The notes under the pieces: model-generated | What the model was told of the DNA's origin: nothing | What the model saw: the letters and a program-made list of their open reading frames with translations, nothing else | Database searches by the model: none | Position numbers and translations under genes: made by a program | Assembly (NCBI GenBank): GCA_027064085.1 | Contig: JAMOQH010000047.1 | Location: forward strand, 1 to 56,076 | DNA: 56,076 bases | Direction: 5' to 3' | DNA from: a bacterium | Lineage (GTDB): Bacteria; UBP6; JAFGXH01 | Shown here: one piece after another, positions 11,721 to 43,284 of the stretch | Layout: each line of letters begins with the position of its first letter | Numbering within the stretch: the first letter of the stretch is position 1

Positions 11721-14700
11721 CTATTTATTTATAATTGTATTATTTCTATTAATAATTCTTGGAGTAATAAAAATTAAAAGCTCTGATCTCTCATCAGTAT
11801 GTTTTGTACTTTTAAAGAACCAACCAAGAACAGGAATACTTCCTAATAAAGGAACTCTTTTTTCTTCATCAGATAACTTTTTAGTATACATTCCACCAAT
11901 TACCGCAGTTTCACCATCTTTTATTAAAAGCTCCGTTTTAGCATTTTTAGAAATAATTGCGGGGTCGCCTAGTGAGTTAACACGGCTAAAGTCAGGCTCT
12001 TCTTTTATCATTTCAACTTTCAAAATAATTGAACCATCTGCAGTAATATGAGGTGTTACAATTAATTTTATTTTAGCATCAATTAGTTTAGAAGCAGGAA
12101 CACCTTGAGCATTTAAGGTCATAATAGGAATTTTAACACCAGTTTCAATCAATGCTTCTTTATTATCCAATGTTGATATTCTTGGAGAAGAAACAATTTT
12201 CAATTTACCCTCTGCTTCAGCGGCGGCAAGTCTTAATTTTAAATTAAGACTATCATTAACTGAACCTAAAGACAGAGAGATTCCTCCACCAGAACCTTCT
12301 GCGCCTGTCGCAGGTAAATTTGTAACCCATTGATCACTACCTTTATATCCAACGGCTCCAATACTTGATGGAAAATATAAACCTGTTTGAGAAGCATTCT
12401 TAGGGCCTAGCTCAACTCCACCACCCCACTGAATACCTTTTTCTGTAGAGAAACTTGAAGAAGCTTCAACAATCCTTCCTTCAATTAAAACTTGAGGAGT
12501 TTCAGTATCTAAATTTTTAATTAATGCTTCTGCATTATCTAATTTACCAGCTAAATCTTTTACAATTAGCACATTTGTTCTTGTGTCAACAGTAACTTTA
12601 CCTCTTTTACTCAAAATACCTTTAACTTGCTCAACTAATTCTTCTGCGTGGGCATAAGAAACAGGAATTAATCTAACATTAAGTGGTATATTATCCTTCT
12701 TTTTGTTCTCCATATCAATTCTATCTTGTAGCTCTTTTGATAAAATAGTTAATGGAGCAACTCTTATAATATTACCAAGTATTTCTTTTCCTAATCCTTT
12801 AGTTTTTAGAATAACATCTAAAGCTTTATCCCATTGAACATTTCTTAGTCTTACTGTAACCGTTCCTGAAACATCATCAGAAGTTATAATATTTATTTTA
12901 CTAACATCAGCAATTAATTCCAATACATCATGTATGTCTGCATTTTTGAAATCTATAGAAATTCTTTTACCATAATATTTTCTTTTAGTACTATTTGATG
13001 TAGTATTTGCTTGATAAGAAGCTGTTTGTGTTGATAAATATTTAATATTACTTGATTCTTTTTTAACTAAAACATTAGTTTTTACATTTCTAAATTTCCA
13101 AACAAACACATTGTTTTTTAATGAAAAATTATTATTAGACTTGTTTTGTAACTTTACAGCTAAAATTGTATCATTAGATGATTGAAAAATTGATGCCATT
13201 CTAACAATACTATTTCTATTCTTAACTTCGATTGTATTTTGTAATCTTTCTGGAGTTTTCACATTAAAAAATTTAATTACCGCTAAATCACTATCTTCTC
13301 TTATAAGAGAGTATTTTACATTATCATCAAATTTTAAAACAACAGATGTATAATTATTGTCATTTTTAGTTTCAGCATCAATCAAATTATTCGTTAGAAC
13401 CATTTTATTTGTGAGTAAAGTTAATTTTAAAATATTCTTATCTTTTTTCAGAAAATATTTAGGAATACTAGAATTAGAGTTAATATCAACAACAACTCTC
13501 GAACCACTATTATTCTTTCCTAATCTTATTGAACTAAGCAATAAATCCTTAAAAGCAATATTTCTCTTTAGATTCTTATTCATTTCAGTATTAGGTAAAT
13601 CAATAACGATTCTTTTAGGGTTAGTTAACTCTCTAATTTCAAAATCACCAGAATAATCTTTAATATTAAGATTTATTACAACTTTATTCTTATATTTTAA
13701 AACTTTCAAATCGTTCAATTTTGTATTTTTATTTTTTTTACTTATTTTAGTTTCTTTAACAACTATTTCTTTTTGATTTGCAATTAAATTGGCTAATTGT
13801 TCTTTTAATTTTAAATTTTCATTTTCTATTTGCTTCTTCTCGTTTTCCATTTTTCTTTTTTCTTTCTCTAAAGCAAGTTTATTATTATTTCTAGATTGTT
13901 GATTTAGATTAGCTTTTAATTTTTTATTTTCAATTAAAAGAGCTTTCTTCTCATTTTCTATTTTTGTATTTTTATTTGATATTTTTAAATATTCTTGTTT
14001 TAAAGACAAATAGTTATTCCTTTCTTTTCTCAATTTTTTATCAATATTTAGTTTTTCTTTAGCAATACCATCTCTTTTAATTTTCAACCTATTTAAGTTT
14101 TTATTCATGTTATTGCTTCTGGATTTTAATTTTTTATTCTCAGCTAATAATGAGTTTATTTTATTAGTTAATTTTTTATTTTTTAAGTTATTAGAATTCT
14201 TTTTTCCACTATTTAGTTTTTTAGATAAAGAATTTATTTCTTTTTGATTGCTAACAATTTTTTGATTGTTCTTTATAAGTTTTTTATCAAGTAAAGCAAT
14301 TCTTTTATCTTTAGATTTTAATAAGTTGTTTTTCTTACTTAATTCATTTGTTAGATTCTTGTTTAAATTTTCTATTTTATTTAATGAATTGTTTAAAGAT
14401 AACAATTTGGTTTTTAGAGAATTTAACTCTCTATTTTTTTGTTCTAAATTACTTTCTTTTAAGGATATAGCTTTTTCTTTTTTTCTTAAGAGATTCTCAA
14501 CTCTTTTTATCTCTTGTTCTTTCTTCAAAAGCTTTAGCCTGATTTTTTTTATTTCTTCATCTCTTTTTTTATTATCCTGATTCTTTACGAAATCATTTTC
14601 ATTGTAATTACTTTTTTTCTTTACAATGTAGCGATTACCTGAAATACTGCTGTCTTCTAGATACAAGACGAATCTGTTTCCAATAGACTTAACTGAATAC

Positions 14701-15032
14701 TTGCCATCCTTTTTAAGTGAAAGCATTATTCTACTAGTGGTGTTTATATCATCTTCAAATTGAGATGTTATAATCTGTTTTATAATTTCATTATTTACAT
14801 TTATTGGAGATTCAATTCCTTCAATAGAAGCATTTGATATATCAATAATCAAACGAAGGGGGTTCCTTAGTTTAAATACCGTAAATGTAGGCTTTTGAGT
14901 TCCTTGAACATTCAATTCAATCCTTCCTGTAGATTCTTTTATACTAATCTTAGATATCTTATTATCTAAAGATAATATACTTACAGAGTAAAGATACAGA
15001 ACCATCACTAACAACATACTTATTCGTTTCAT
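11721..15032 (-). CDS. pilQ: PilQ, type IV pilus secretin, with large coiled-coil insert
   Basis: 1103 aa, longer than usual PilQ (about 700-900). It forms the outer-membrane channel for the pilus. A signal peptide (about 1-22) is followed by an AMIN domain (about 25-130), an uninterrupted Lys/Asn/Leu-rich coiled coil (about 150-430), a second AMIN domain (about 440-545), a third beta repeat (about 550-655), STN (about 690-765, SIDFKNADIHDVLELIADVS), NolW/N1 (about 785-848) and the secretin domain (about 850-1098, ending with VPLLGSIPVLGWFFKSTK). The start is ATG 15032 with GAGGT upstream; an in-frame GTG at 15038 overlaps that site. The coiled coil is not part of ordinary PilQ. Confidence 0.92.
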   Translation of the reverse strand: MKRISMLLVMVLYLYSVSILSLDNKISKISIKESTGRIELNVQGTQKPTFTVFKLRNPLRLIIDISNASIEGIESPINVNNEIIKQIITSQFEDDINTTSRIMLSLKKDGKYSVKSIGNRFVLYLEDSSISGNRYIVKKKSNYNENDFVKNQDNKKRDEEIKKIRLKLLKKEQEIKRVENLLRKKEKAISLKESNLEQKNRELNSLKTKLLSLNNSLNKIENLNKNLTNELSKKNNLLKSKDKRIALLDKKLIKNNQKIVSNQKEINSLSKKLNSGKKNSNNLKNKKLTNKINSLLAENKKLKSRSNNMNKNLNRLKIKRDGIAKEKLNIDKKLRKERNNYLSLKQEYLKISNKNTKIENEKKALLIENKKLKANLNQQSRNNNKLALEKEKRKMENEKKQIENENLKLKEQLANLIANQKEIVVKETKISKKNKNTKLNDLKVLKYKNKVVINLNIKDYSGDFEIRELTNPKRIVIDLPNTEMNKNLKRNIAFKDLLLSSIRLGKNNSGSRVVVDINSNSSIPKYFLKKDKNILKLTLLTNKMVLTNNLIDAETKNDNNYTSVVLKFDDNVKYSLIREDSDLAVIKFFNVKTPERLQNTIEVKNRNSIVRMASIFQSSNDTILAVKLQNKSNNNFSLKNNVFVWKFRNVKTNVLVKKESSNIKYLSTQTASYQANTTSNSTKRKYYGKRISIDFKNADIHDVLELIADVSKINIITSDDVSGTVTVRLRNVQWDKALDVILKTKGLGKEILGNIIRVAPLTILSKELQDRIDMENKKKDNIPLNVRLIPVSYAHAEELVEQVKGILSKRGKVTVDTRTNVLIVKDLAGKLDNAEALIKNLDTETPQVLIEGRIVEASSSFSTEKGIQWGGGVELGPKNASQTGLYFPSSIGAVGYKGSDQWVTNLPATGAEGSGGGISLSLGSVNDSLNLKLRLAAAEAEGKLKIVSSPRISTLDNKEALIETGVKIPIMTLNAQGVPASKLIDAKIKLIVTPHITADGSIILKVEMIKEEPDFSRVNSLGDPAIISKNAKTELLIKDGETAVIGGMYTKKLSDEEKRVPLLGSIPVLGWFFKSTKHTDERSELLIFITPRIINRNNTIINK

Positions 15033-15041
15033 AATCACCTC

Positions 15042-15608
15042 TTATTCTTCCGTTTCTAATTTTATAGGAATTCTATTAACAATTCTTTTACCACTAAGTT
15101 CATAGCTTTCTTCATTTATAATAATTCTATCTTTTTTAATAGATAGAATACGGCCAGAGTTTTTACCAACAAACTCTCTTTCTCTAACATTATGGGTTTT
15201 ACCTGTAGGATCTTTTAAAAGAGCTCTTCTATCATTAGAAGTCGTTCCATATACAAGACCAACAAGTTTCAACTCATCTAAATCAAAGCGTTGTAACTCT
15301 GAAATTTTACTAATATTTTCTGTAATTTTTATATCTGATGTAATAATGGGGGAAGTATCATTTACTTTTTTATTAAAGATAGATTGAAAAGGATCTGCTA
15401 ATTTGTGATCAGGATAAACATAATTATCATTACCTAAATCAATTTTTTTCATTATCCCATCATAAAGTTTATTTATATCTTTCTTCCTATCTTTTTTCAT
15501 AGATAATTTTTTTTGAGAATGATACTCTGGAAAACAACCAGATGCCAAAATTGTAATCACAATAAAAATAATATATTTTTTAAATTTATTTGTAAACTTC
15601 GTTTTCAT
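15042..15608 (-). CDS. pilP: PilP, pilus alignment-complex lipoprotein
   Basis: 188 aa. Lipobox L-A-S-G-C at Cys25. The conserved DPFQS segment (about 72-76) and the beta domain with LKLVGLVYGTTSNDRRALLK (about 113-132) are typical of PilP. It links the PilN/PilO inner-membrane dimer to the PilQ secretin. It lies 15 nt after pilO and 9 nt before pilQ. Confidence 0.88.
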   Translation of the reverse strand: MKTKFTNKFKKYIIFIVITILASGCFPEYHSQKKLSMKKDRKKDINKLYDGIMKKIDLGNDNYVYPDHKLADPFQSIFNKKVNDTSPIITSDIKITENISKISELQRFDLDELKLVGLVYGTTSNDRRALLKDPTGKTHNVREREFVGKNSGRILSIKKDRIIINEESYELSGKRIVNRIPIKLETEE

Positions 15609-15623
15609 AAAAACTCCAAATTA

Positions 15624-16232
15624 CTATTTTTTCTTTTTACCCTTTTTATTTTTTTGCCCTTCATTTTCTTTTTTAAATCTATAAATTTTAATTGTTAATT
15701 CTGCATCAATTAAAACTTTTTGATTTTTATAAACAGGCTTACTCATTTTTATATCATTCATATTGATAATTCTATTTGCTTCGCCAACTTTATTTAAAAA
15801 GTTTAATATTTCATGGAAAGATCCATTTATTTCTAATTTAATAGGCTTTTCAACATATAAATCTCTTACAATCTCTTTTTGTGGCTCTATATTATTAATT
15901 CTAACAAGAGTTGTATCCGCCATTATACCAATAGCATGAATAACTACATCTGTTTCCGTTCTATTTGGAAGCTTAGTTTGTTCTTCAATAAGTTTTTCAT
16001 CAATTTTCCTATTAATGGCTTTATCCATTTCAAGGGTTTTACTTTTATCATCATATTCCAACTTCTTTTCTTCAAGAGAGCTTCTTCTATTTAGAAGTCT
16101 CATATAGTCTTCTTCTAATGGGGAAAAGAAGAGAAAATAATTTATAGCACTAACCAAAACAGTAACAACAACAACAATGGCTATTTTATGTCCTGTTTTT
16201 AATGATGAAAAATTCTCTAAAATATCATTCAT
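15624..16232 (-). CDS. pilO: PilO, pilus inner-membrane alignment protein
   Basis: 202 aa. A short cytoplasmic N-terminus, one transmembrane helix (about 17-35), a coiled coil (about 38-80) and a ferredoxin-like domain (about 95-185) make the PilO layout. The Lys-rich tail after residue 186 is an extra. It forms a heterodimer with PilN. It overlaps pilN by 8 nt. Confidence 0.88.
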   Translation of the reverse strand: MNDILENFSSLKTGHKIAIVVVVTVLVSAINYFLFFSPLEEDYMRLLNRRSSLEEKKLEYDDKSKTLEMDKAINRKIDEKLIEEQTKLPNRTETDVVIHAIGIMADTTLVRINNIEPQKEIVRDLYVEKPIKLEINGSFHEILNFLNKVGEANRIINMNDIKMSKPVYKNQKVLIDAELTIKIYRFKKENEGQKNKKGKKKK

Positions 16233-16812
16233 TGTTTTTCCTCTCTTTTAATACACAATCAATTTTAAAAGCAATATATTTTAAAGCTTGAGTATATTTC
16301 CCTTGCTTAAGTTTACCAGTGTAAGTTTCAGAATGAATTTCTTTGATTTCAACTTTAGAAAATATATTACCTTGCCCCATTAAAGATGCAACAAAACGAG
16401 TTACATTATCATAAGATGCAGCCCCCCCTTTTAATTCAATTTTATTATTTTTTTTATCTAGAACAATCAACCATGTTTTATCTGGTATTTGCCTATTAAT
16501 CTCATCAAGTGTCTTTAATAAATTTTTCTTTAATTTTTCTAATGCATTAATTGCATTAATTCTTCTTAAAAACTCTTCTCTCTTCTTTTTTTCTTTTTTT
16601 AAATCACCAAGTAAATTCTTATATTGGTTAACATCTTTTTGAAGCTTATTTACCTTTAAACGTTGTTGTTCAACAAGTGTATTGTGATGAAGATAAAAAA
16701 CAATATTCCCTGTAATAATCAAAATTATTACGACTAAAAAAAGCATAAATTGCTTAAGTTGTTTTTTATACTTTAGTCCTTCTTTTATTGGTAATAAATT
16801 TAATGTAATCAT
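16225..16812 (-). CDS. pilN: PilN, pilus inner-membrane protein
   Basis: 195 aa. The N-terminus M-I-T-L-N-L-L-P is the conserved cytoplasmic segment that binds PilM. A transmembrane helix (about 22-43), a coiled coil (about 47-100) and a periplasmic ferredoxin-like domain follow. It is fused by overlap to pilM (TAATG) and to pilO. Confidence 0.9.
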   Translation of the reverse strand: MITLNLLPIKEGLKYKKQLKQFMLFLVVIILIITGNIVFYLHHNTLVEQQRLKVNKLQKDVNQYKNLLGDLKKEKKKREEFLRRINAINALEKLKKNLLKTLDEINRQIPDKTWLIVLDKKNNKIELKGGAASYDNVTRFVASLMGQGNIFSKVEIKEIHSETYTGKLKQGKYTQALKYIAFKIDCVLKERKNNE

Positions 16813-17867
16813 TAGCTTTCCACCTTTCTTAATGCCAACCCAACAGCAACAGTTGCTAAAATACCATTTTCTCTAATAAAATCAATATTAAACATTCTTG
16901 GATCAATATTAATATTATTAAATGGATTTAAATATTCAACCTGAATACCAGATGACTCTCCTAACCTTTTTGTTATGAGCTCTACTTTTGAACCTCCACC
17001 GGAAAGATATAATCTATCAATATCATCTCCAGCAGCTTGGGTTCTGTAGTAATCAATAGTCTGCAATATTTCACCCGCAATTCGACTAGCAACATCTTCA
17101 TATATACCATGCAATTCTTTTGAGTTAACCAAATTAGAATCACCTTGTAATGCTCCTAGTTTAATATTCTCAGCCTCTTCAACAGATAATCCATAATATT
17201 GAGAAACAGCTTCAGTTACCTCCATGCCTCCAATAGAAATATCTCTTACAAATTTTGAAATTCCTTTTTCAATAATATTAATATTCGTAATTGCTGACCC
17301 AATATTGATAATAACAACATTTTCATCATTATATCTGTTCGGATAATTAAATTCATAAACATTCTGTAGTGCAAATGCATCAATATCAACAATTGCAGGC
17401 TTTAAACCTATAGACTTGACAAGCTGATCATATTCATCAACCATATTTCTTTTTGCAGCAACTAAAAGGACTTCTATTTCCCCAGATTGATCTGGTACTC
17501 CTGTCAATTTTTGAAAATCAATATAAACATCATTGATATTAACTGGAATGTAAGATTCTGCATCCCACTTAATATGTTCTTCTAATTCATCATCATTAAC
17601 AGTTGTTGTTCGTATAAATCTCACAAAAACTGAATGTCCAGAAATAGATAATGCAACATTTTTAGTTTTAACTTTAACTTCTTTTAGAATTTTAACTAAA
17701 CTATCTGAGATAGCAGAAGTATTCATTAATGCACCATCAACAATTGACTCTGTTGGCAATGGAACAATAGCAAAACTCTTAAGAGATGTTAATTTTTTAG
17801 TTTGCTTTAAACAAACTAATTTCATTGAACTAGTACCAATATCCAACCCGATAATATTTACAGCCAT
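16812..17867 (-). CDS. pilM: PilM, actin-like ATPase of the type IV pilus
   Basis: 351 aa. It is a cytoplasmic actin/FtsA-fold protein that binds the PilN N-terminus. Phosphate-1 motif G-L-D-I-G-T-S-S-M-K (7-16), the SHS2-like insert with DAESYIP near 90-96, phosphate-2 motif V-I-I-N-I-G-S-A near 190 and adenosine motif Y-L-S-G-G-G-S near 288 are visible. It is the first gene of the operon, with GAGGT upstream of ATG 17867 and a promoter at 17894-17922. Confidence 0.93.
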   Translation of the reverse strand: MAVNIIGLDIGTSSMKLVCLKQTKKLTSLKSFAIVPLPTESIVDGALMNTSAISDSLVKILKEVKVKTKNVALSISGHSVFVRFIRTTTVNDDELEEHIKWDAESYIPVNINDVYIDFQKLTGVPDQSGEIEVLLVAAKRNMVDEYDQLVKSIGLKPAIVDIDAFALQNVYEFNYPNRYNDENVVIINIGSAITNINIIEKGISKFVRDISIGGMEVTEAVSQYYGLSVEEAENIKLGALQGDSNLVNSKELHGIYEDVASRIAGEILQTIDYYRTQAAGDDIDRLYLSGGGSKVELITKRLGESSGIQVEYLNPFNNINIDPRMFNIDFIRENGILATVAVGLALRKVES

Positions 17868-33348: not shown

Positions 33349-33377
33349 TTGACACGACAAGCTTGTTGTGATACATT
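33349..33377 (+). promoter_or_regulatory. Promoter of the Glt-like operon with palindrome between the boxes
   Basis: TTGACA (33349-33354), 17-bp spacer, TACATT (33372-33377). The spacer is almost filled by an 18-bp dyad at 33353-33370 (perfect core ACAAGCTTGT, two mismatched positions outside), which could be an operator. Confidence 0.65.
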
Positions 33378-33405: not shown

Positions 33406-34734
33406 ATGAAATTTCTTTTCACTACAATTTTTTTAATTATCTTACTCTTATTACCTGCATGTGAGAATGGCATAGTCATTTCTTACAATCCAGATGATTT
33501 AGAATCTGCAAGATTTATTAAAACAGAGAAGATTAAAAACGGAACAAATGAATTAAACTGTGAATATGGTGACCCAACACATACTCACAAACAGGATGAC
33601 TCCTATTACGTGTATTTTACACTTACAAGTGCAAAGGCATCTCCAGTAAATCCAGAAAGCCCAAAGTTTTCGGGTATTGAGGACAGCCTTTCTATTGAAT
33701 TCCAAGTAAAAGATGATCAGGGAAACTTTAAAAAGGATGATTCAATTCAAGTTGGTACAATAGAGTATGTATCTCCTGGTAAAAACTTAAGCGAAAGGCA
33801 AAATTTTAATTTTCTGATTGATGTATCTGATGACACCTGTTTGGATGCAACAGATAAAGATAGATGTGCCCTTTCAGGTGGTTTAAGTTCAATTTCTTTT
33901 GGAGATATGCTAAATAAAATATCAACAGCTCTTTCAAACTTATATGATTACTATGACGATGAAAATTCATTTTTTATTGAAGATGAATTTATTGGAGTAA
34001 AGTATTTAGCTTTTTCTGCAGGAGGAGAATCAAATTGGTTTGTAAAAATGATTACAAGCTATATTACAGATATGGATGGCTGTAGTGGCTCAATGTCAGA
34101 TCAAAAAAACAAAAGAAAAATCCAATGTTGGCTAGACTTAAACAGTACAAGCACATATAGAGGGCTTAAAAATGAATCATCTAAATATCATAGAAAGCTG
34201 TGGGATGGATATATTGCGGCTGCAGACCTTATAAAATCAGATAACAATAAAAATAAGAATATTTTATTGTTTACATCTGGTTATGAGGAGGCTTTTTATG
34301 ATACAAATTCTGAATTAAGTGCAAACAATAAATCTGTTCACAGCGAAGCAGAATTTTTTAGTGCAATTACAGCAAACGATAACATCCCGGTATTTATTGC
34401 ACCTGAAGACAGATCAGATACTAAAAGTTTTCCAGATACAATTGGAACAAGCATAGATGATAAATTCTATAAGCTTGCTTGTTTAACAAATGGAGCTTAT
34501 TTCCCATATGTATTTAAAGACAATGAATGGAAACCAACACAAACATCTGATTATAGTGCACAATATATTATGGGTAGTGTAAAGGATGCTAGTTATGGTA
34601 CATGGAGAGTAAAAATAACATTAAATAGTAATACAACAGAGCGTTTTTATGATGGCGGATTTGTTGTTAATGCTAAAAGTGCTACAGGTAAAGATATCAA
34701 AACTAGCTTAGCTGGTTATAGAATTGTAAGATAG
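33406..34734 (+). CDS. Lipoprotein with VWA-like domain, first gene of the Glt-like operon
   Basis: 442 aa. Lipobox L-L-P-A-C at Cys19. A VWA-like domain is suggested by F-L-I-D-V-S-D-D-T near 145 (a partial MIDAS, D-x-S) and N-I-L-L-F-T-S-G-Y near 285-293, with beta strands at the C-terminus. In Myxococcus the Glt outer-membrane set includes an OM lipoprotein (GltK); this protein holds the same position in order but no direct similarity can be claimed. GAGG precedes the start and the next gene follows at 11 nt. Confidence 0.65.
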   Translation: MKFLFTTIFLIILLLLPACENGIVISYNPDDLESARFIKTEKIKNGTNELNCEYGDPTHTHKQDDSYYVYFTLTSAKASPVNPESPKFSGIEDSLSIEFQVKDDQGNFKKDDSIQVGTIEYVSPGKNLSERQNFNFLIDVSDDTCLDATDKDRCALSGGLSSISFGDMLNKISTALSNLYDYYDDENSFFIEDEFIGVKYLAFSAGGESNWFVKMITSYITDMDGCSGSMSDQKNKRKIQCWLDLNSTSTYRGLKNESSKYHRKLWDGYIAAADLIKSDNNKNKNILLFTSGYEEAFYDTNSELSANNKSVHSEAEFFSAITANDNIPVFIAPEDRSDTKSFPDTIGTSIDDKFYKLACLTNGAYFPYVFKDNEWKPTQTSDYSAQYIMGSVKDASYGTWRVKITLNSNTTERFYDGGFVVNAKSATGKDIKTSLAGYRIVR

Positions 34735-34745
34735 GAGAATATAAT

Positions 34746-35426
34746 ATGAAAAAAGTAATTATTGCATTTTTATTATTTGGGCTAACGATTCCATTGTTTT
34801 CAAGCAACTTAAATCAAGAAGTTGATAAATATTGGGGAGCAAGAAGACAAATCGTTGTAATTCAAAAGAAAGAATTCACAAAATCTGATAAACTTGAACT
34901 TATATTATTTGGTGGAATGGTTCCAAATGATGCGTTTTACAATTCATTTCCTATGGGCATGAGACTTGATTGGTTTATGTCAGAAAATTTATCATTTGGA
35001 CTTTCAGGCTCATATCACATTAACGCTGATACAGGTTCAATAAGCGTATTAAAAGAGTTGGGTGTAAAATCTAAATTTATGGAAAAAGTTAATTGGGACG
35101 CTTCATTAAGTGCATCTTACAGTATAATATATGGAAAAGGAGCTATGGGTAAAACTACATTAGCTTATTTCGATCTTTATCTATTAGGATTTGCTTCTAT
35201 TTATGGCACTGAATTCCATCCAGGTTCATCTTATGACAAAACAGATAGCAGTATCAGATTTGGTGGTGGAATTGGTTTTGGAACAAGATTCTATCTTACT
35301 AAAAATATTTCTTTTAGAATGGAAGCTAGACAAAACTTTTTTATGAGAACCCCAACAAGTGATGGTGGACAAGGTGGCATTCAAAAACCTCTTGAATTAT
35401 CTTTAGGAATTGGTTGGTTATTCTAA
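34746..35426 (+). CDS. Outer-membrane beta-barrel domain protein, GltA/GltB-like
   Basis: 226 aa. Signal peptide (1-19), then ELILFGGMVPNDAFYNSFPM and a small barrel ending in Phe (LSLGIGWLF). This pattern fits the myxobacterial outer-membrane beta-barrel domain (TIGR04565 type) found next to TPR gliding-motility genes. It is the second gene of the operon, between the lipoprotein and the first TPR protein. Confidence 0.65.
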   Translation: MKKVIIAFLLFGLTIPLFSSNLNQEVDKYWGARRQIVVIQKKEFTKSDKLELILFGGMVPNDAFYNSFPMGMRLDWFMSENLSFGLSGSYHINADTGSISVLKELGVKSKFMEKVNWDASLSASYSIIYGKGAMGKTTLAYFDLYLLGFASIYGTEFHPGSSYDKTDSSIRFGGGIGFGTRFYLTKNISFRMEARQNFFMRTPTSDGGQGGIQKPLELSLGIGWLF

Positions 35427-35446
35427 ATAACAGTTAGGAGTTATAA

Positions 35447-37444
35447 ATGATTAAATTTAAAATATATTTATTATTTTTTTTAATATCCTTTTCTGTTTTT
35501 GGACTTACTAAATCAGAAATCATAAAAATGACAAAAATGGGGCTCCCAGAAAGTACACTTATGGCAACAGTCAATGGCTCTAAAGATGTTGTAAAGATGG
35601 AAAAAGCAGATATTATAGAAATGAAAACAGCAGGCGTTCCAATTTCTGTAATAAAAGCATTAATAAAGAGATATTTAAAAAAGAAAGAAACCATAAAAAA
35701 AACTAGTACTAAAAAAGAAATAAAAAAGGATACTGCAGAAGAAGCTAAAAGACTTGAGGAAGAAAAAGCAAAAGCTGCTGAAGAAGCTAAGATAAGAGCG
35801 GAGGAGCAAAAAAAAGCAGAAGAAAGAATTGCAAAAAGAAAATCAGCTCAAGAACAAAGAGAATACAGAGAAAAGAGACTGTCTCTTGATAGAGCAATAG
35901 GAATGTACAATAAAAAAGAATATTTGAGAGCAATTAAAAAATTAAATAAATTTTTTAAAGTTGGTTTTAAACAAAGCAGTAATGAATATTACCTTGCTAC
36001 ATTTTATTTAGGAATGTCTTATTATAAATCAAAAGCATATTATTCTGCCATAAAAACATTAAAAGATGTTTTAGTTAGAGGTCCAGAAGTTAAAGTAGGT
36101 AAATCTATAAAAGGTGCTTACTTCATGCTAGCTTTTGAAGCTTATGGTAAAATCACTGGGGATTGGCCATTTAGTAGTGATTATAATGAAACTTACAGCA
36201 TGATAGCAACTTATAACACGGCAACGCTACCTAATAAGTTTCAAAATGTATACAATTATTATATGGGAAAATACTATACAAAATGGGCATCTAACTCATC
36301 TAGAGCTGAAAAATATTTGGCTAGAATAACCCCAATAAAGAATAAAAACAGCAAATCTACTAGTTATCCTAAATTATATGCTTCTGCTCAGTATTTACTA
36401 GGCTTAAATAAAGTTAAGTCTAAAAAATATAATAAAAGCGTAAAACATTTTCAAAATGTAATTGTAGCAGTTCAGAATAAAACTGATTTTAAAAACACAA
36501 GCTTAAGAGATTTGGCTTATATTGCATTAGGCAGAATTTATTATGAAATTGCATCATCATATTTTGCCGTGGGAGGTATAGAGCAAGCAAAAAGACTTGC
36601 AAATGCGTCCTTAGATGCCTATAGAAAAGTATCAAAAGATAGTCCTAAACTTGCAACAGCATATTATGAAGCATCATGGGCCGCATTTATTACAGGTGAA
36701 TATGATATCTCATTAGGCTATTTACATTCATTACACTCTTCTTATCTTAAAGATTATTATTATCCAGATAAATATATTTTAGAAGCTGGAATATATGTAA
36801 ATATGTGCTTATTTAAATATGCTGATGAAGCAGTTTCTGCTTTTAAAAAGAAATATGACCCTTTTAAAAAAGAGCTAGATAGTTTCTTATCAGAACCATT
36901 AGAGCCTAAAGAATACCTAGAAAAAATTAAAAAAATATCTGCAAACAAGCCTATGAAAGGAAAAAGATTTTCTTATGAATTAATTTCTTATATTATTTCA
37001 GATGGATATTTTTATGAAAGTTACAATGCTTTAAATAATATAGAAAATGAAAAAAGAATTTTGGCAAAATGGAGTAAAAAAGGTAAAAGCAAAATAGCCT
37101 CTTTTAATAAACTATATGTTCAAATTCTTAAAAAAGAAGACAAGTTGTATCGTTCATTAGGCTCATGGGTAAGAAGAAAATTACAAAATGCAGTAAATAA
37201 CTTAAATGAACTATATTTAAAATCTGATGAAATTTCTTTTGAAATTATTAGTGCAGAAAAAAGAGTTTTACAAAATGAAAAACTTGCTTTAACTCAAAAA
37301 ACAAAAACCACTAAATCTCAAAAAGCAAGATCCAAAAAGGAATACAATCTTAAAGATGATGAAATGATGTGGAAATTCACTGGTGAATATTGGATTGATG
37401 AGATAGATAACTATCACTCTTTTTTACAGAGTAAATGTAAATAG
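35447..37444 (+). CDS. Periplasmic TPR protein, GltC-like
   Basis: 665 aa. Signal peptide (1-19, ending VFG), two short helical repeats (about 20-75), a charged single helix (about 85-145, Lys/Glu/Ala), then TPR-like repeats (about 147-460) and a helical C-terminus. The size and order agree with GltC, the periplasmic TPR protein of the Myxococcus gliding complex. The call rests on architecture and neighbourhood, not alignment. Confidence 0.55.
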   Translation: MIKFKIYLLFFLISFSVFGLTKSEIIKMTKMGLPESTLMATVNGSKDVVKMEKADIIEMKTAGVPISVIKALIKRYLKKKETIKKTSTKKEIKKDTAEEAKRLEEEKAKAAEEAKIRAEEQKKAEERIAKRKSAQEQREYREKRLSLDRAIGMYNKKEYLRAIKKLNKFFKVGFKQSSNEYYLATFYLGMSYYKSKAYYSAIKTLKDVLVRGPEVKVGKSIKGAYFMLAFEAYGKITGDWPFSSDYNETYSMIATYNTATLPNKFQNVYNYYMGKYYTKWASNSSRAEKYLARITPIKNKNSKSTSYPKLYASAQYLLGLNKVKSKKYNKSVKHFQNVIVAVQNKTDFKNTSLRDLAYIALGRIYYEIASSYFAVGGIEQAKRLANASLDAYRKVSKDSPKLATAYYEASWAAFITGEYDISLGYLHSLHSSYLKDYYYPDKYILEAGIYVNMCLFKYADEAVSAFKKKYDPFKKELDSFLSEPLEPKEYLEKIKKISANKPMKGKRFSYELISYIISDGYFYESYNALNNIENEKRILAKWSKKGKSKIASFNKLYVQILKKEDKLYRSLGSWVRRKLQNAVNNLNELYLKSDEISFEIISAEKRVLQNEKLALTQKTKTTKSQKARSKKEYNLKDDEMMWKFTGEYWIDEIDNYHSFLQSKCK

Positions 37445-37472
37445 TATATAAATTTATTTGGAGGTCTTTTAA

Positions 37473-40400
37473 ATGACTAAACTTCTTGGTATTTTATTAT
37501 TGTTGTTTTCTTTTTCTTTTGTTTTACCTGCTAATTCATTTAAAGCAGCTAAAAAAAAGAAGGAAATTAAACTAAAATTAAAAAAAGAAAAAAGAAAAAA
37601 AGATGAAGCTAGAAAAAAAGCTCTTGCTAAATTAGAACAAATGAAGAAAAAAAAGCTTGATCTATATTCATTAACAGATGATGATTTAGCTTCTATTGAA
37701 AAAAAAGAAAAAGAAATAAATGAAAAGAATAGAGAGCAAATAATTCTTCTTGAAAGAATGATTAAAAATCCAAATCTTTCAGATGATCAAAAAGCAGAAA
37801 GGATGTTTAGATTAGCCGAATTAAAATGGGAAAGCTCTAAATTTTCATACCTAAGAAGAAGAAAGGAATATGAAAAATTAATGGATAAATGCCTTGAAGA
37901 TAAAACAGTCAAATGTCCTAAAAAAGAACCTGTTGCTGATTACTCTGCATCTATTAAAATATATAAGACAATTTTAAAAAAATTACCTAGATATGACAGA
38001 ATTGATGAAGTTATATACTATTTAGGTTATGGACTTCAGAGAGCCGGGAAACCATCACAAGCAGTATCATATTTCAAAAAAATTGTACTTAAATATAAAA
38101 AGAGTGAATATTTAGCTAAGGCATACTTTTCATTAGGAGAGTATTTCTTTGATAATAACTCCTTTATTGCAGCTAAGAAGAATTATGAAAAAGTTCTTGA
38201 AGACAAAAACAGTGATATTTATGACCTAGGTATGTATAAAATGGGTTGGGTTTATTATAATCTTGGTTCTGCTGCAACCGATAATAATCCTAAAAAATGG
38301 GAAAATTTAGATAAATCTTTAGATTATTTTAAATATTCAATAGAAAAATCCACAAAAGCGATTGCATTTAAAACTCAAGCTAAAAATGATTTAGTATTAG
38401 TTATGAGTGAATATAAAGATGCTTTTGACAGAGTGAAATCCTATTTTTATAAACTTGGTGGTCAAAAAGAAGCAATTAAAAGACTCAATAATTTAGGTGA
38501 ATTATTGCTAGCTCAGGGTAAAGATACACAGGTTGTTGAAGTTTATAGATATTTAATTGAATCTGCCCCTACTGCTAAAAGAGTCCCAGAGTATTATAGC
38601 ACTATACTAGAAACAGAAATTAGATTAAATGATAAAAAGGTTATTGCTAAAACTTTCAGAGAAATAATTGATTACTTTGCTCCGGATAGTGATTGGGTTA
38701 GAGCAAATACAGGTAAAGAATGGCAAAAAGAGGGTTTTGAGCTTGGTCAAAAACTATTACAAGAGAGAGCAATTACATTTCATGAAATTGCACAAAAATG
38801 TAACCCTAGAAGTAAAAAATTTAAATGTAATAAACATGAATCATATCTAAAAGCAGGTGACTTATATAGAGAATATATAGATAAGTATCCAACAAGTAAA
38901 GAAGCATACCAAGATAGTTTCTATTATGCTGAAATCCTATTTTATCATAAAAAAGATTATCAGCAAGCTGCAAACTATTATGAAAAGATATTTAAAGATC
39001 CTTCTGCAAAACAATACTATGCAGATGCAGCATTTGGTATGATACTTGCTCTTGAAAAATTAATGAAAGATGAAATGGAAAGGTTGCAAGGACAAGTTAA
39101 AATTACAGAGTCTAAAGAAGCTGGCTCTCTTAATAAAAAAGAAAGGGTTGAATTTACTCCTAGAGAAAGACAATATGTTGTTGCATGTGATAATTATATA
39201 AAAGTTGTTAAATCACCAAAAGAAAAGCCTAAAGTTGCTTATGGTGCGGCAAGACTCTTTTACGAAAAGGCACAATATAAAGAATCAATTAAAAGATTCC
39301 AAGATATTATTAAAAGCTATAAAGGCACTAAGTTTGCATCACTTGCAGGTAACTTAATTCTAGATACTTACAATAGGCTTAAAAACTACAAAGAAATTGA
39401 AAATTGGGCTGAAATACTTCTTAAAAACAAAGATTTTACATATAACAAGAAAAACAAGTTAATTATCTTTGTAAGACAATCAGTATTAAAACAAGGTGAA
39501 GAAGCAATTAAAGCAGGAAAATATGTTGAAGGAGCAAATCATTTTATCAGACTTGCAGGCGACAGAAGATTTAAAAAAGATTTAACTATTGCTCCTGATG
39601 CTCTTGAAAGAGCAGCTATTGCTTATGGTTTAGCAAAAGATGAACCCAGTGCAAATAGAATATTACTTAGAATAGTAAAAGAATATCCTAAGTCAGAGTT
39701 AGCTCCTAAATCATTATTTACACTAGGTAAGGTTCATAGCCTAAGAGCAAAATTTAAACAAGCTGCTGATTACTTTAGTATGTTACAAAAATATCCTAAA
39801 AATGAACAATATACTCCTGATGGACTATATAATGCAATTACACTATACGCCGCTTTAGGTGACACTAAAAATGCTATTTCCTTGATAGATAAAACATATC
39901 TTAAAATATATGGAAAATCTAAAGATCCTGCAAGAATTAAAGATATTGAAGCTTTAAAATATAAAAGAGGTGAAATCTTTGAAATGGTTAAGGATTATAA
40001 AAAAGCTAATGAAGCTTATAAGGAATATGTTATTAAGTATCCAAAAGATAAAAATAAAATTATTGAATTAAAAATAAGAATGGGTAAAAACTTATTAAAA
40101 CTCAAGAAAAATAATATGATTGGAGCTAAAAAGTATTTTAAAGAAGCAATTAAAATATTTGATGATAAATACTTAAAATGTAAAAATGTTACTATCAAAA
40201 AGGGAAGAAAGAAAATCACTAAAAAAGAATGTAAAATTGATAGTAAAATTAAGAAAGGAAGTAAAAAAGAAGGCGAGTTTATTTATACCAAAAATTTAGT
40301 TGGTGGTGTATTATTTATGCTGGCAGATAAAAATTATCAAAAATATATTTCTTTATCAAAAGGTATAATTTCAACACCAGCTTACAAGCCAAGATCTTCA

Positions 40401-40922
40401 GCAGAAAGAAAAATGCAAAAGAAAATCAAAGAAATGAAAAAGCTTTATCCTAAATTAAGAGATTCCTATAGTAATATATTAAATTACGAATCACCTATTT
40501 GGACAGTAGCTGCATCTTATAGGCTTGGTAAAATTTATGGTGTTTTTGCAGAAACTTTATTTAAAGCTCCGTTACCAAAAGGTTTAAATGAAGATGAAGA
40601 ATTCGTTTATAGAGACATGCTTGATGAAATAGCAATTCCTCTTCAAGAAAAAGCAATTCAAAACTATGATGTAGTATTGCAAGTTGTTAAACAAAATAAG
40701 TTTTATAATAAATGGTATAGTAAAACAGCATCTGAAATTGTTAAATATGAAGGAAGAGAAAATCTATTTCCAGCTGCAAAATACTTTTATAAAGATAAAT
40801 TATCTCAGGATTTCTACTTAAAATTCAGAATTGAAAGAAAAAAAATTAATCCAATTATTAAAAAAACAGAAAAAAAAGTAGATGATAAAAAAATGAAAAG
40901 AAATAAGAAAGGTAGAAAATAG
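37473..40922 (+). CDS. Large TPR protein, GltD/AgmU-like
   Basis: 1149 aa. Signal peptide (1-20), a Lys-rich coiled coil (about 25-105), then at least ten TPR-like repeats along most of the chain (for example KPSQAVSYFKKIVLKYKKSE and QAANYYEKIFKDPSAKQYYA) and a basic tail. The length and layout resemble AgmU/GltD, the large TPR protein of the Myxococcus gliding machinery. It is preceded by GGAGG and followed at 11 nt by the next TPR gene. Confidence 0.55.
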   Translation: MTKLLGILLLLFSFSFVLPANSFKAAKKKKEIKLKLKKEKRKKDEARKKALAKLEQMKKKKLDLYSLTDDDLASIEKKEKEINEKNREQIILLERMIKNPNLSDDQKAERMFRLAELKWESSKFSYLRRRKEYEKLMDKCLEDKTVKCPKKEPVADYSASIKIYKTILKKLPRYDRIDEVIYYLGYGLQRAGKPSQAVSYFKKIVLKYKKSEYLAKAYFSLGEYFFDNNSFIAAKKNYEKVLEDKNSDIYDLGMYKMGWVYYNLGSAATDNNPKKWENLDKSLDYFKYSIEKSTKAIAFKTQAKNDLVLVMSEYKDAFDRVKSYFYKLGGQKEAIKRLNNLGELLLAQGKDTQVVEVYRYLIESAPTAKRVPEYYSTILETEIRLNDKKVIAKTFREIIDYFAPDSDWVRANTGKEWQKEGFELGQKLLQERAITFHEIAQKCNPRSKKFKCNKHESYLKAGDLYREYIDKYPTSKEAYQDSFYYAEILFYHKKDYQQAANYYEKIFKDPSAKQYYADAAFGMILALEKLMKDEMERLQGQVKITESKEAGSLNKKERVEFTPRERQYVVACDNYIKVVKSPKEKPKVAYGAARLFYEKAQYKESIKRFQDIIKSYKGTKFASLAGNLILDTYNRLKNYKEIENWAEILLKNKDFTYNKKNKLIIFVRQSVLKQGEEAIKAGKYVEGANHFIRLAGDRRFKKDLTIAPDALERAAIAYGLAKDEPSANRILLRIVKEYPKSELAPKSLFTLGKVHSLRAKFKQAADYFSMLQKYPKNEQYTPDGLYNAITLYAALGDTKNAISLIDKTYLKIYGKSKDPARIKDIEALKYKRGEIFEMVKDYKKANEAYKEYVIKYPKDKNKIIELKIRMGKNLLKLKKNNMIGAKKYFKEAIKIFDDKYLKCKNVTIKKGRKKITKKECKIDSKIKKGSKKEGEFIYTKNLVGGVLFMLADKNYQKYISLSKGIISTPAYKPRSSAERKMQKKIKEMKKLYPKLRDSYSNILNYESPIWTVAASYRLGKIYGVFAETLFKAPLPKGLNEDEEFVYRDMLDEIAIPLQEKAIQNYDVVLQVVKQNKFYNKWYSKTASEIVKYEGRENLFPAAKYFYKDKLSQDFYLKFRIERKKINPIIKKTEKKVDDKKMKRNKKGRK

Positions 40923-40933
40923 GAGTGTAAAAA

Positions 40934-42568
40934 ATGAAAAAATTAATTCTATTAATAGCTCTTTTGGGTATAATATCTGTTGCTTGTGGAGAAAAAAAAG
41001 TTGTTAAAAAAGATGTAAACAATGATCTTCCTAAAATTACTCAAGAAGAACAATTAAAACTTGATGCACCTGCAAATGAAAAAAAGGGTTTGGACGCTTG
41101 CAAAAGAAAAGATCATAAATCTGCTAAAAAATATTTCAAACTAACATTAAAAGGTAATCCTAATAATTTTAATGCATTATACAAATTAGGAAAGATTAGT
41201 TTTCATGATGATAATTATGAAGCAGCTGAAGATTATTTTAGAAAAGCAATTGCTGTAAATGATAAAAACAATAATCTAAAATTAGTATATGGTAACTTAC
41301 TTATAAAAATGAATAGATGGCCAGATGCTAAAGAATTTTTTGAAATTCAATTTGCAAAAGATCCTAAATTTGCAGAAGCAGCTATTTCCTTACTTGCTAT
41401 TTACAAACATCTTATTGAAAAAGAAAAGGATAATAAAAAAATTGAGCAACTAGTAAAAAAAGCAGAAGGCTTTGCACAAAAAGCATTAAAGGAAATACCT
41501 GGAGATTCTGCAATATATAATAATCTAGGACAACTGTATTATTTGGCAGGTAAAAAATCTCTATCATTTTATGCTTTATCAATTGCAGAAAAAAATGATA
41601 AAAAATCACCAATAGTATTAAATACAATAGGTGTTTATTATGAAAATGAAAATAATGAGTTTTTAGCAAAAAGATATTATAAATTAGCATTAAAAAATGA
41701 CCCTAATTATGTACCTGCTTTAAAAAATATGGTTAGATTTCAGATGGAGTCTTTAAATTATGCTGATGCAAAAAAGAATTTTGAAAAAATCATTAAAGCA
41801 GAACCTAATAATATTAATGCTCTTTATGGTTTAGCAATATCAGAATTAGGCTTATTTAATTTTACAGAAGCAATTAATAAACTTAAAGCATTATTTAACA
41901 AAACTAAAGATAATAAATATGCTCTCATGATAGCAGAAATATATTACAAAAATTTAAATCAAAATCCTAAATATCAAACTAAACCAGAGGAAAGAAAAAA
42001 ATTCTTAGCAGAAGCTAAAAAATGGTATAAACTATATGTTGATAAACATAAAGAATTAAGAAAAGATAATGATATTGTAATGATTTATAATGGTATAGAC
42101 GCTGAAATTAAAATGATAAATAATCCAGATAATTTAAAAACACCTGAAGATAATAAAAAAGCAGAACTTACCGATGAACAAAAAAAGAAAAAAGAAGAAA
42201 TTCTTGAACAAAGAAAATTAGCTGATATAAAAGCTAAAAAAGAAGAATGCTTAAAAGAAGGAAAATCTGAAGAAGAATGCAATGTGATTGTAAAAAAATA
42301 TGAATTACAAGAAAAATATGATACATGTGTAGAAAAAAAATCTGAAGAAGAGTGTGCTCCAATTCTTAAAGAATTAGAAAATATCATGAATGGTAAAACT
42401 CAAGAAGTAAATAAACCTAATGATAAAAAAATCAGTAAGGATAAGGCGATGCCTAATCCTACTAATGGAGAGAAAAAGAAAAAAGAAAAAAAAGAAGTTA
42501 AGAAAGAAGCTACTCCTAAAAAAATAACTCCTAAAAAAGAAGTTAAATCTAATAAACAAGGTAAATAA
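40934..42568 (+). CDS. TPR lipoprotein, AglT/GltE-like
   Basis: 544 aa. Lipobox I-S-V-A-C at Cys18, then about eight canonical TPRs (about 45-340; for example A-A-E-D-Y-F-R-K-A-I and N-A-L-Y-G-L-A-I-S-E-L-G), and a charged Lys/Glu tail with a few Cys pairs. The type matches AglT (GltE), the TPR lipoprotein next to GltD in Myxococcus. Its stop overlaps the pdxJ start (TAATG). Confidence 0.6.
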   Translation: MKKLILLIALLGIISVACGEKKVVKKDVNNDLPKITQEEQLKLDAPANEKKGLDACKRKDHKSAKKYFKLTLKGNPNNFNALYKLGKISFHDDNYEAAEDYFRKAIAVNDKNNNLKLVYGNLLIKMNRWPDAKEFFEIQFAKDPKFAEAAISLLAIYKHLIEKEKDNKKIEQLVKKAEGFAQKALKEIPGDSAIYNNLGQLYYLAGKKSLSFYALSIAEKNDKKSPIVLNTIGVYYENENNEFLAKRYYKLALKNDPNYVPALKNMVRFQMESLNYADAKKNFEKIIKAEPNNINALYGLAISELGLFNFTEAINKLKALFNKTKDNKYALMIAEIYYKNLNQNPKYQTKPEERKKFLAEAKKWYKLYVDKHKELRKDNDIVMIYNGIDAEIKMINNPDNLKTPEDNKKAELTDEQKKKKEEILEQRKLADIKAKKEECLKEGKSEEECNVIVKKYELQEKYDTCVEKKSEEECAPILKELENIMNGKTQEVNKPNDKKISKDKAMPNPTNGEKKKKEKKEVKKEATPKKITPKKEVKSNKQGK

Positions 42569-43284
42569 TGAAATCATTATCACTAAATGTTGACCATGTT
42601 GCAACATTAAGAGAAGCAAGAAAAGATAATATGCCAGACCCCGTTACTGCAGCTTTAATGGCTGAAAAATTTGGAGTAAATGGTATAACCGTTCACCTAA
42701 GAGAAGATAGAAGACATATTCATGATAGAGATGTTGAAATTATATCAAAACTAATAAAAACGGATTTAAATCTAGAAATGGCTGCAGTTGATGAAATGTT
42801 AAAAATAGCTTATAATATTAGGCCTAAAATGGTTACCCTAGTTCCAGAAAAAAGAGAAGAAATCACAACAGAAGGGGGACTTGATATTATAATAAAAAAA
42901 GATTATTTGACAGACTTCATAAAAAACTTACATAATTCTAATATATTAGTTTCTTTATTTATTGATCCAGATATTGATATGGTAAAACAAGCTCATAAAG
43001 TTAATGCAGACATTGTAGAATTACATACTGGAGCTTATTCAAACGCAATTTCAGATAAAGACCAGTACAAAGAATTATTAAAAATTGTAGATGCATCTAG
43101 AACTGCAACAAAATTAGGAATGGAAGTTCATGCAGGCCATGGTATCAACTATCATAATATTGCTCCATTAGCACAAATAAAAGATATAGAAGAATTTGCA
43201 ATAGGACACTCTATTATTTCACATTCTATTTTTGTTGGCTTAGAGAAAGCAGTAAAAGATATGTTAAAACTCATAAACATCTAA
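42568..43284 (+). CDS. pdxJ: Pyridoxine 5'-phosphate synthase
   Basis: 238 aa. It condenses 1-deoxyxylulose 5-phosphate with 3-amino-2-oxopropyl phosphate in DXP-dependent vitamin B6 synthesis. The family signatures N-V-D-H-V-A-T-L-R-E-A-R (7-18), HLREDRRHIHDRD (about 43-55), M-V-T-L-V-P-E-K-R and H-A-G-H-G-I-N-Y (about 191-198) are all present, and the length is normal. It is translationally coupled to the last TPR gene. Confidence 0.97.
   Translation: MKSLSLNVDHVATLREARKDNMPDPVTAALMAEKFGVNGITVHLREDRRHIHDRDVEIISKLIKTDLNLEMAAVDEMLKIAYNIRPKMVTLVPEKREEITTEGGLDIIIKKDYLTDFIKNLHNSNILVSLFIDPDIDMVKQAHKVNADIVELHTGAYSNAISDKDQYKELLKIVDASRTATKLGMEVHAGHGINYHNIAPLAQIKDIEEFAIGHSIISHSIFVGLEKAVKDMLKLINI

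Follow-up and report, generated by a model that had tools for sequence, protein, structure and literature searches.

A Glt-type gene set without its own motor in a genome of the UBP6 phylum, and its possible service by a motor encoded elsewhere

On balance we think it probable, by analogy with Myxococcus xanthus, that the operon described here specifies those parts of a Glt/Nfs-type trans-envelope complex that lie in the outer membrane and periplasm and that these are engaged by a motor encoded elsewhere in the genome, a coupling that we infer. The operon lies in a 56,076-nucleotide stretch of DNA, the whole of which is called the window here, from a MAG of 3.65 Mb and 27% GC (G000) of an uncultured bacterium of the UBP6 phylum. 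Four Glt-type sets were found in this genome, three of them elsewhere (sets A, B and C) and the fourth, set D, in the window.

Set D and pdxJ make up six ORFs on the plus strand (window 33406-43284; Table 1) with intergenic gaps of 11, 20, 28, 11 and -1 nt, and most of the ORFs are preceded by a GGAG/AGGAG-type ribosome site. The tight spacing agrees with a preliminary description of this DNA, which had placed the lipoprotein, the barrel, three TPR proteins and pdxJ in one operon. Because promoter-like matches totalled 70 as against 68.7 in shuffles, the promoter-like site just upstream of the first gene proves nothing by itself. The last gene, pdxJ, is probably co-transcribed with the Glt-type genes and probably functionally unrelated to them; its linkage is not conserved, since in the sister genus smpB comes after GltE. 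The same description had stated that the inner-membrane motor is absent from the window, and profile searches bore this out, as no AglRQS, GltG or GltJ was found there and all matches to PF01618, GltG and GltJ were on other contigs. Elsewhere in the window, at 11721-17867, NCBIfam models identified pilM and pilQ of the type IV pilus; the small genes that separate the two occupy the places of pilNOP.

Table 1. Features of the operon and its surroundings (window coordinates)
Feature	Position	Strand	Basis
Promoter-like site, TTGACA-17-TACATT with TG before TACATT	33349..33377	+	Consensus match only; just upstream of operon
Predicted outer-membrane lipoprotein, 442 aa, candidate surface adhesin	33406..34734	+	Lipobox LPAC, Cys19; six further Cys
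Outer-membrane beta-barrel, 226 aa, OMP_myx_plus family, GltA/GltB position	34746..35426	+	TIGR04565
GltC homologue, 665 aa	35447..37444	+	NF033756 E=9e-41; non-UBP6 model 232.8 bits; GEYWxDE motif
GltD/AgmU homologue, 1149-aa TPR protein	37473..40922	+	Non-UBP6 model 550.7 bits
GltE/AglT homologue, 544-aa TPR lipoprotein	40934..42568	+	Lipobox VACG, Cys18; model 131.5 bits; NF033758
Palindromic repeat copy, peptide SKDKAMPNPTNGE, C-terminal tail of GltE homologue	42437..42462	+	Repeat search
pdxJ	42568..43284	+	NCBIfam; overlaps GltE stop by 1 nt

Sequence comparisons support a Glt-like identity for the barrel, GltC, GltD and GltE of the window. The barrel, which is 27% identical to that of set A, scored 83 bits against TIGR04565 (OMP_myx_plus), above the cut-off of 60. 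The GltC homologue matched the NCBIfam gliding_GltC model over positions 66-619 of 622 and retains the C-terminal motif listed in Table 1; it also carries an additional N-terminal region of about 110 residues, a charged stretch, that is missing in the GltC of set A. A competing explanation is that the three TPR proteins are generic outer-membrane TPR proteins that are like Glt proteins in size only. In its favour, GltD matches only generic TPR families in NCBIfam (tol_pal_ybgF with 105 bits, BamD with 43), and GltC and GltE fall under the curated gliding equivalog cut-offs (140 versus 450 bits for NF033756, and 43 versus 225 bits for NF033758, a weak match with E=2.7e-11). To set against this, models of GltC, GltD, GltE and GltG were built from loci of other phyla, mostly Myxococcota and Bdellovibrionota, with loci marked UBP6 left out, and the search space was 189 ORFs of the source genome, the window included. 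With these models the window proteins scored 233 bits (GltC, nearly full length), 551 bits (GltD, positions 15-1043 of 1075) and 132 bits (GltE, positions 4-410 of 435), against 22.9, 105 and 81.5 bits for the best generic NCBIfam TPR matches, in a sampling that is not fully independent because the source loci were found with UBP6-based GltC patterns and their ORFs chosen with UBP6-based models. The barrel family and the gene order also agree with Glt, the order GltC-GltD-GltE being common to many Myxococcota loci. Since the Glt models outscored the best generic matches for all three proteins, the proposal that they belong to generic families fails, and we regard it as most improbable; the Glt-like identity proposed in the preliminary description holds for the barrel and, nearly end to end, for the TPR proteins.

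The product of the first gene has no Pfam or NCBIfam match and is family-restricted, with orthologues in the sister-genus genomes (G001 and G002). An AlphaFold model of the full-length lipoprotein reached a pLDDT of 50 and a pTM of 0.55 with no clear fold match, and a model of the central domain of a sister-genus orthologue reached a pLDDT of 38. In M. xanthus, the surface adhesin of gliding is CglB, which is loaded in the outer-membrane assembly (reviewed in PMC12288465). The window lipoprotein resembles CglB in its length (442 aa compared with the 402 positions of the NCBIfam model), in its lipobox and in being tied to Glt parts, but it differs from this VWA surface adhesin lipoprotein in having no detectable sequence relation to it and no intact DxSxS motif. 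It gave no NCBIfam match to the CglB family NF033757, for which the best match in the genome (E=0.07) lies elsewhere than the window, and a profile-profile comparison with CglB-like proteins and the VWA protein of set C was negative. That the first gene is an analogue of CglB, in functional position, is offered as a lead only. A VWA domain had been suggested by eye from the segments LIDVSDD, KLACLTNGAYF and KNILLFTSG; none could be shown by a Pfam search at E<=10, by a sequence search of the PDB, by the profile-profile comparison or by the two AlphaFold models.

A search of the rest of the genome for AglRQS and other Glt proteins, which the preliminary description had proposed, found two clusters of AglR-AglQ-AglS-GltG, one further GltG and a GltJ. 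The genome encodes eight MotA/ExbB proteins (PF01618), two of them in the AglR-AglQ-AglS-GltG clusters on contigs C40 and C159. Set A (C22) consists of a barrel, GltC, GltD, GltE, GltG and another barrel, with no motor. Set B (C40; L046:705-8366) comprises GltC, GltD, GltE, a GltF-like protein, AglR, AglQ, AglS, GltG, a barrel and Wza-like and Wzc-like proteins, and set C (C159; L045:3471-9408) comprises lipoproteins, AglR, AglQ, AglS, GltG, a barrel, GltC and GltD. The non-UBP6 models confirmed GltC, GltD and GltG of all three sets, and GltG occurs in this genome in these sets only, on other contigs than the window. The GltJ orthologue, on C61, is 45% identical to a G001 protein that has a zinc-ribbon, GYF, PEGA and a gliding_GltJ match. 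Three lipoproteins of set C lie directly upstream of AglR, one of them with a weak VWA_2 match, a DKSGS motif and 'ISDGAP'; their position next to AglR-AglQ-AglS-GltG is a CglB-like arrangement. In two further families of the phylum (f2 and f3), set A and set B are arranged in tandem, with a barrel after set B; in f2, set B is also followed by genes readable as Wza and Wzc. The set A proteins of records labelled UBP6 (UBA1177 and UBA1196) score like those of f2. The polysaccharide-export genes Wza and Wzc after set B are Pfam-confirmed in G000; in a genome of another family (G005, L095:4049-11599) they were read from the sequence.

Within the phylum, set D is limited to a single family, represented by G000, G001 and G002, all three of which also carry set A GltG, set C GltG and set B genes. 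Only the two sister-genus genomes have close orthologues of GltC and GltD from the window (57-63% identity, with GltD at 63%), and there set D is found at two loci, lipoprotein-barrel-GltC and GltD-GltE-smpB. The unsplit arrangement of G000 is more likely the older gene order, which we infer because GltC and GltD are often neighbours in other phyla. In another phylum, genome G060 (L057:5279-9373) encodes a 1364-aa GltD with a weak GltE-type match (E about 1e-5), which is possibly a GltD-GltE fusion. The dN/dS values between G001 and G002 were 0.16 for the lipoprotein, 0.15 for the barrel, 0.10 for GltC, 0.07 for GltD and 0.13 for GltE, which shows that purifying selection acts on all five genes in the sister genus. 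No homologues of set D were found in viral contigs.

In the GltC and GltD trees, set D forms a clade of its own with good support, which has a long branch and is not nested in A or B; the deep order in these trees is unsure because of the long branches. The trees do not support an origin of set D in a recent duplication of set A or B, as D stands apart in both of them as a deep clade, although their deep order is unsure. The preliminary description had suggested that the operon may be a stripped ancestral form of the gliding machinery. Set D does have fewer genes than the M. xanthus G1 and G2 clusters combined, and its clade is deep in both trees. The suggestion nevertheless finds no support, because the genome has three paralogous sets besides D, the deep clade of D is not a basal stem, and the distribution of D is restricted to one family; the same genome carries the fuller sets A, B and C with two motors, and the published core complex has AglRQS and GltG (PMC3169522), both of which are missing from D. 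We therefore consider an ancestral origin of this kind very unlikely.

Our preferred reading is that set D would act as a head that is moved by a shared motor. The outer-membrane lipoprotein and barrel would form its surface part, with GltC beneath the barrel and GltD and GltE as a TPR scaffold. The AglRQS of set B or set C could engage it by way of GltJ or of the GltG of any of sets A, B and C, and would then drag this head along the cell, just as in Myxococcus AglRQS works for both Glt and Nfs. There, one AglRQS was shown experimentally to drive both systems and to contact GltG/NfsG (PMC3858216), and GltA, GltB and GltC form an outer-membrane subcomplex through direct binding to one another (PMC4488436); set D has one barrel compared with GltA plus GltB. 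The fast-evolving lipoprotein may be the part that contacts the cargo or substrate. Likely outputs would be surface adhesion and gliding, or the deposition of a surface polymer, and the data favour neither. Set D has at its locus neither a motor of its own nor its own GltG, the protein known to partner AglR, and coupling in trans demands more than the Nfs precedent because nfs retains the GltG paralogue NfsG. Since the sister genus has lipoprotein-barrel-GltC at one locus and GltD-GltE at another, the two groups do not have to work as a single complex.

The principal alternative is a motor-independent scaffold, in which Glt parts would serve as a static tether between outer membrane and periplasm or as an adhesin platform after coupling to AglRQS had been lost. 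The operon has no GltG or motor, the sister genus has the module in two pieces, and the sequence gives no readable sign of motor coupling, all of which are in keeping with such a scaffold. However, GltD and GltE, the bridge towards the inner membrane, have been retained and are strongly constrained, and motors and GltG paralogues are present in the set D genomes. We rate the static scaffold as rather unlikely. A broader version of the shared-motor reading, in which UBP6 bacteria of this family operate several interchangeable heads (A-D) on fewer AglRQS motors and D has dispensed even with a GltG of its own and uses its lineage-specific lipoprotein as an adhesin, is put forward tentatively, as something that may well not hold in full.

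A separate feature of the operon is the C-terminal tail of the GltE homologue, where the peptide SKDKAMPNPTNGE arises from a DNA palindrome. The repeat has a GGATRAGNCNNNGNCTYATCC core and co-varying arms, and yields peptides like SKDKxxxYPT. The strict 26-mer has 25 matches in G000 and none for the reversed control, and is absent from 27 other genomes of the phylum; a relaxed palindrome has 92 sites in G000 compared with 0 for the reversed control. Twenty-two of the 25 strict matches are inside ORFs, and the coding ones are all in the sense orientation and in one frame. All 16 distinct relaxed-pattern sites that were examined, some of which overlap the strict set and six of which are tandem copies in one gene, are likewise inside ORFs, sense and in the same frame. 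The hosts are unrelated genes, including GltE paralogues, YidC, lipoproteins, and DnaX-like and CheA-like genes (the last two recognised by their N-termini). The insert carried by the YidC of G000 is missing from the YidC of G001. The repeat presumably resembles the Rickettsia palindromic elements in kind.

We know of no modular surface-transport kit described in the UBP6 phylum. Our results extend Glt/Nfs-type machines to this phylum: a single genome holds four paralogous sets, of which the motor-encoding set B adjoins Wza/Wzc polysaccharide-export genes. A set without motor and GltG offers a testable case of how outer-membrane heads may be swapped on a shared motor, which has been studied so far in M. 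xanthus with Glt and Nfs.

Among known systems, set D resembles the Nfs system of M. xanthus (NfsA-H) in being a paralogous, motorless Glt-type set with clustered barrel, GltC, GltD and GltE homologues. It differs in that Nfs, which is driven in trans by AglRQS, has NfsG and NfsF, both missing from set D, and in that set D has one barrel instead of two and opens with a lipoprotein of no known family. Compared with the M. xanthus clusters G2 (gltK/cglC, gltB, gltA, gltC) and G1 (gltD-J), set D shares the order lipoprotein, barrel, GltC, GltD, GltE, a GltC profile match and an outer-membrane barrel; in contrast, it has a single barrel, lacks GltF, G, H, I and J in the operon, and its GltC and GltE are under the NCBIfam gliding equivalog cut-offs. 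The core complex proposed by Luciano et al. in 2011 consists of AglRQS with GltC, D, E and G (PMC3169522). Of these components, set D has GltC, GltD and GltE, while AglRQS and GltG are both missing from its locus and from the window. In sets B and C, AglRQS and GltG are found together with GltC and GltD.
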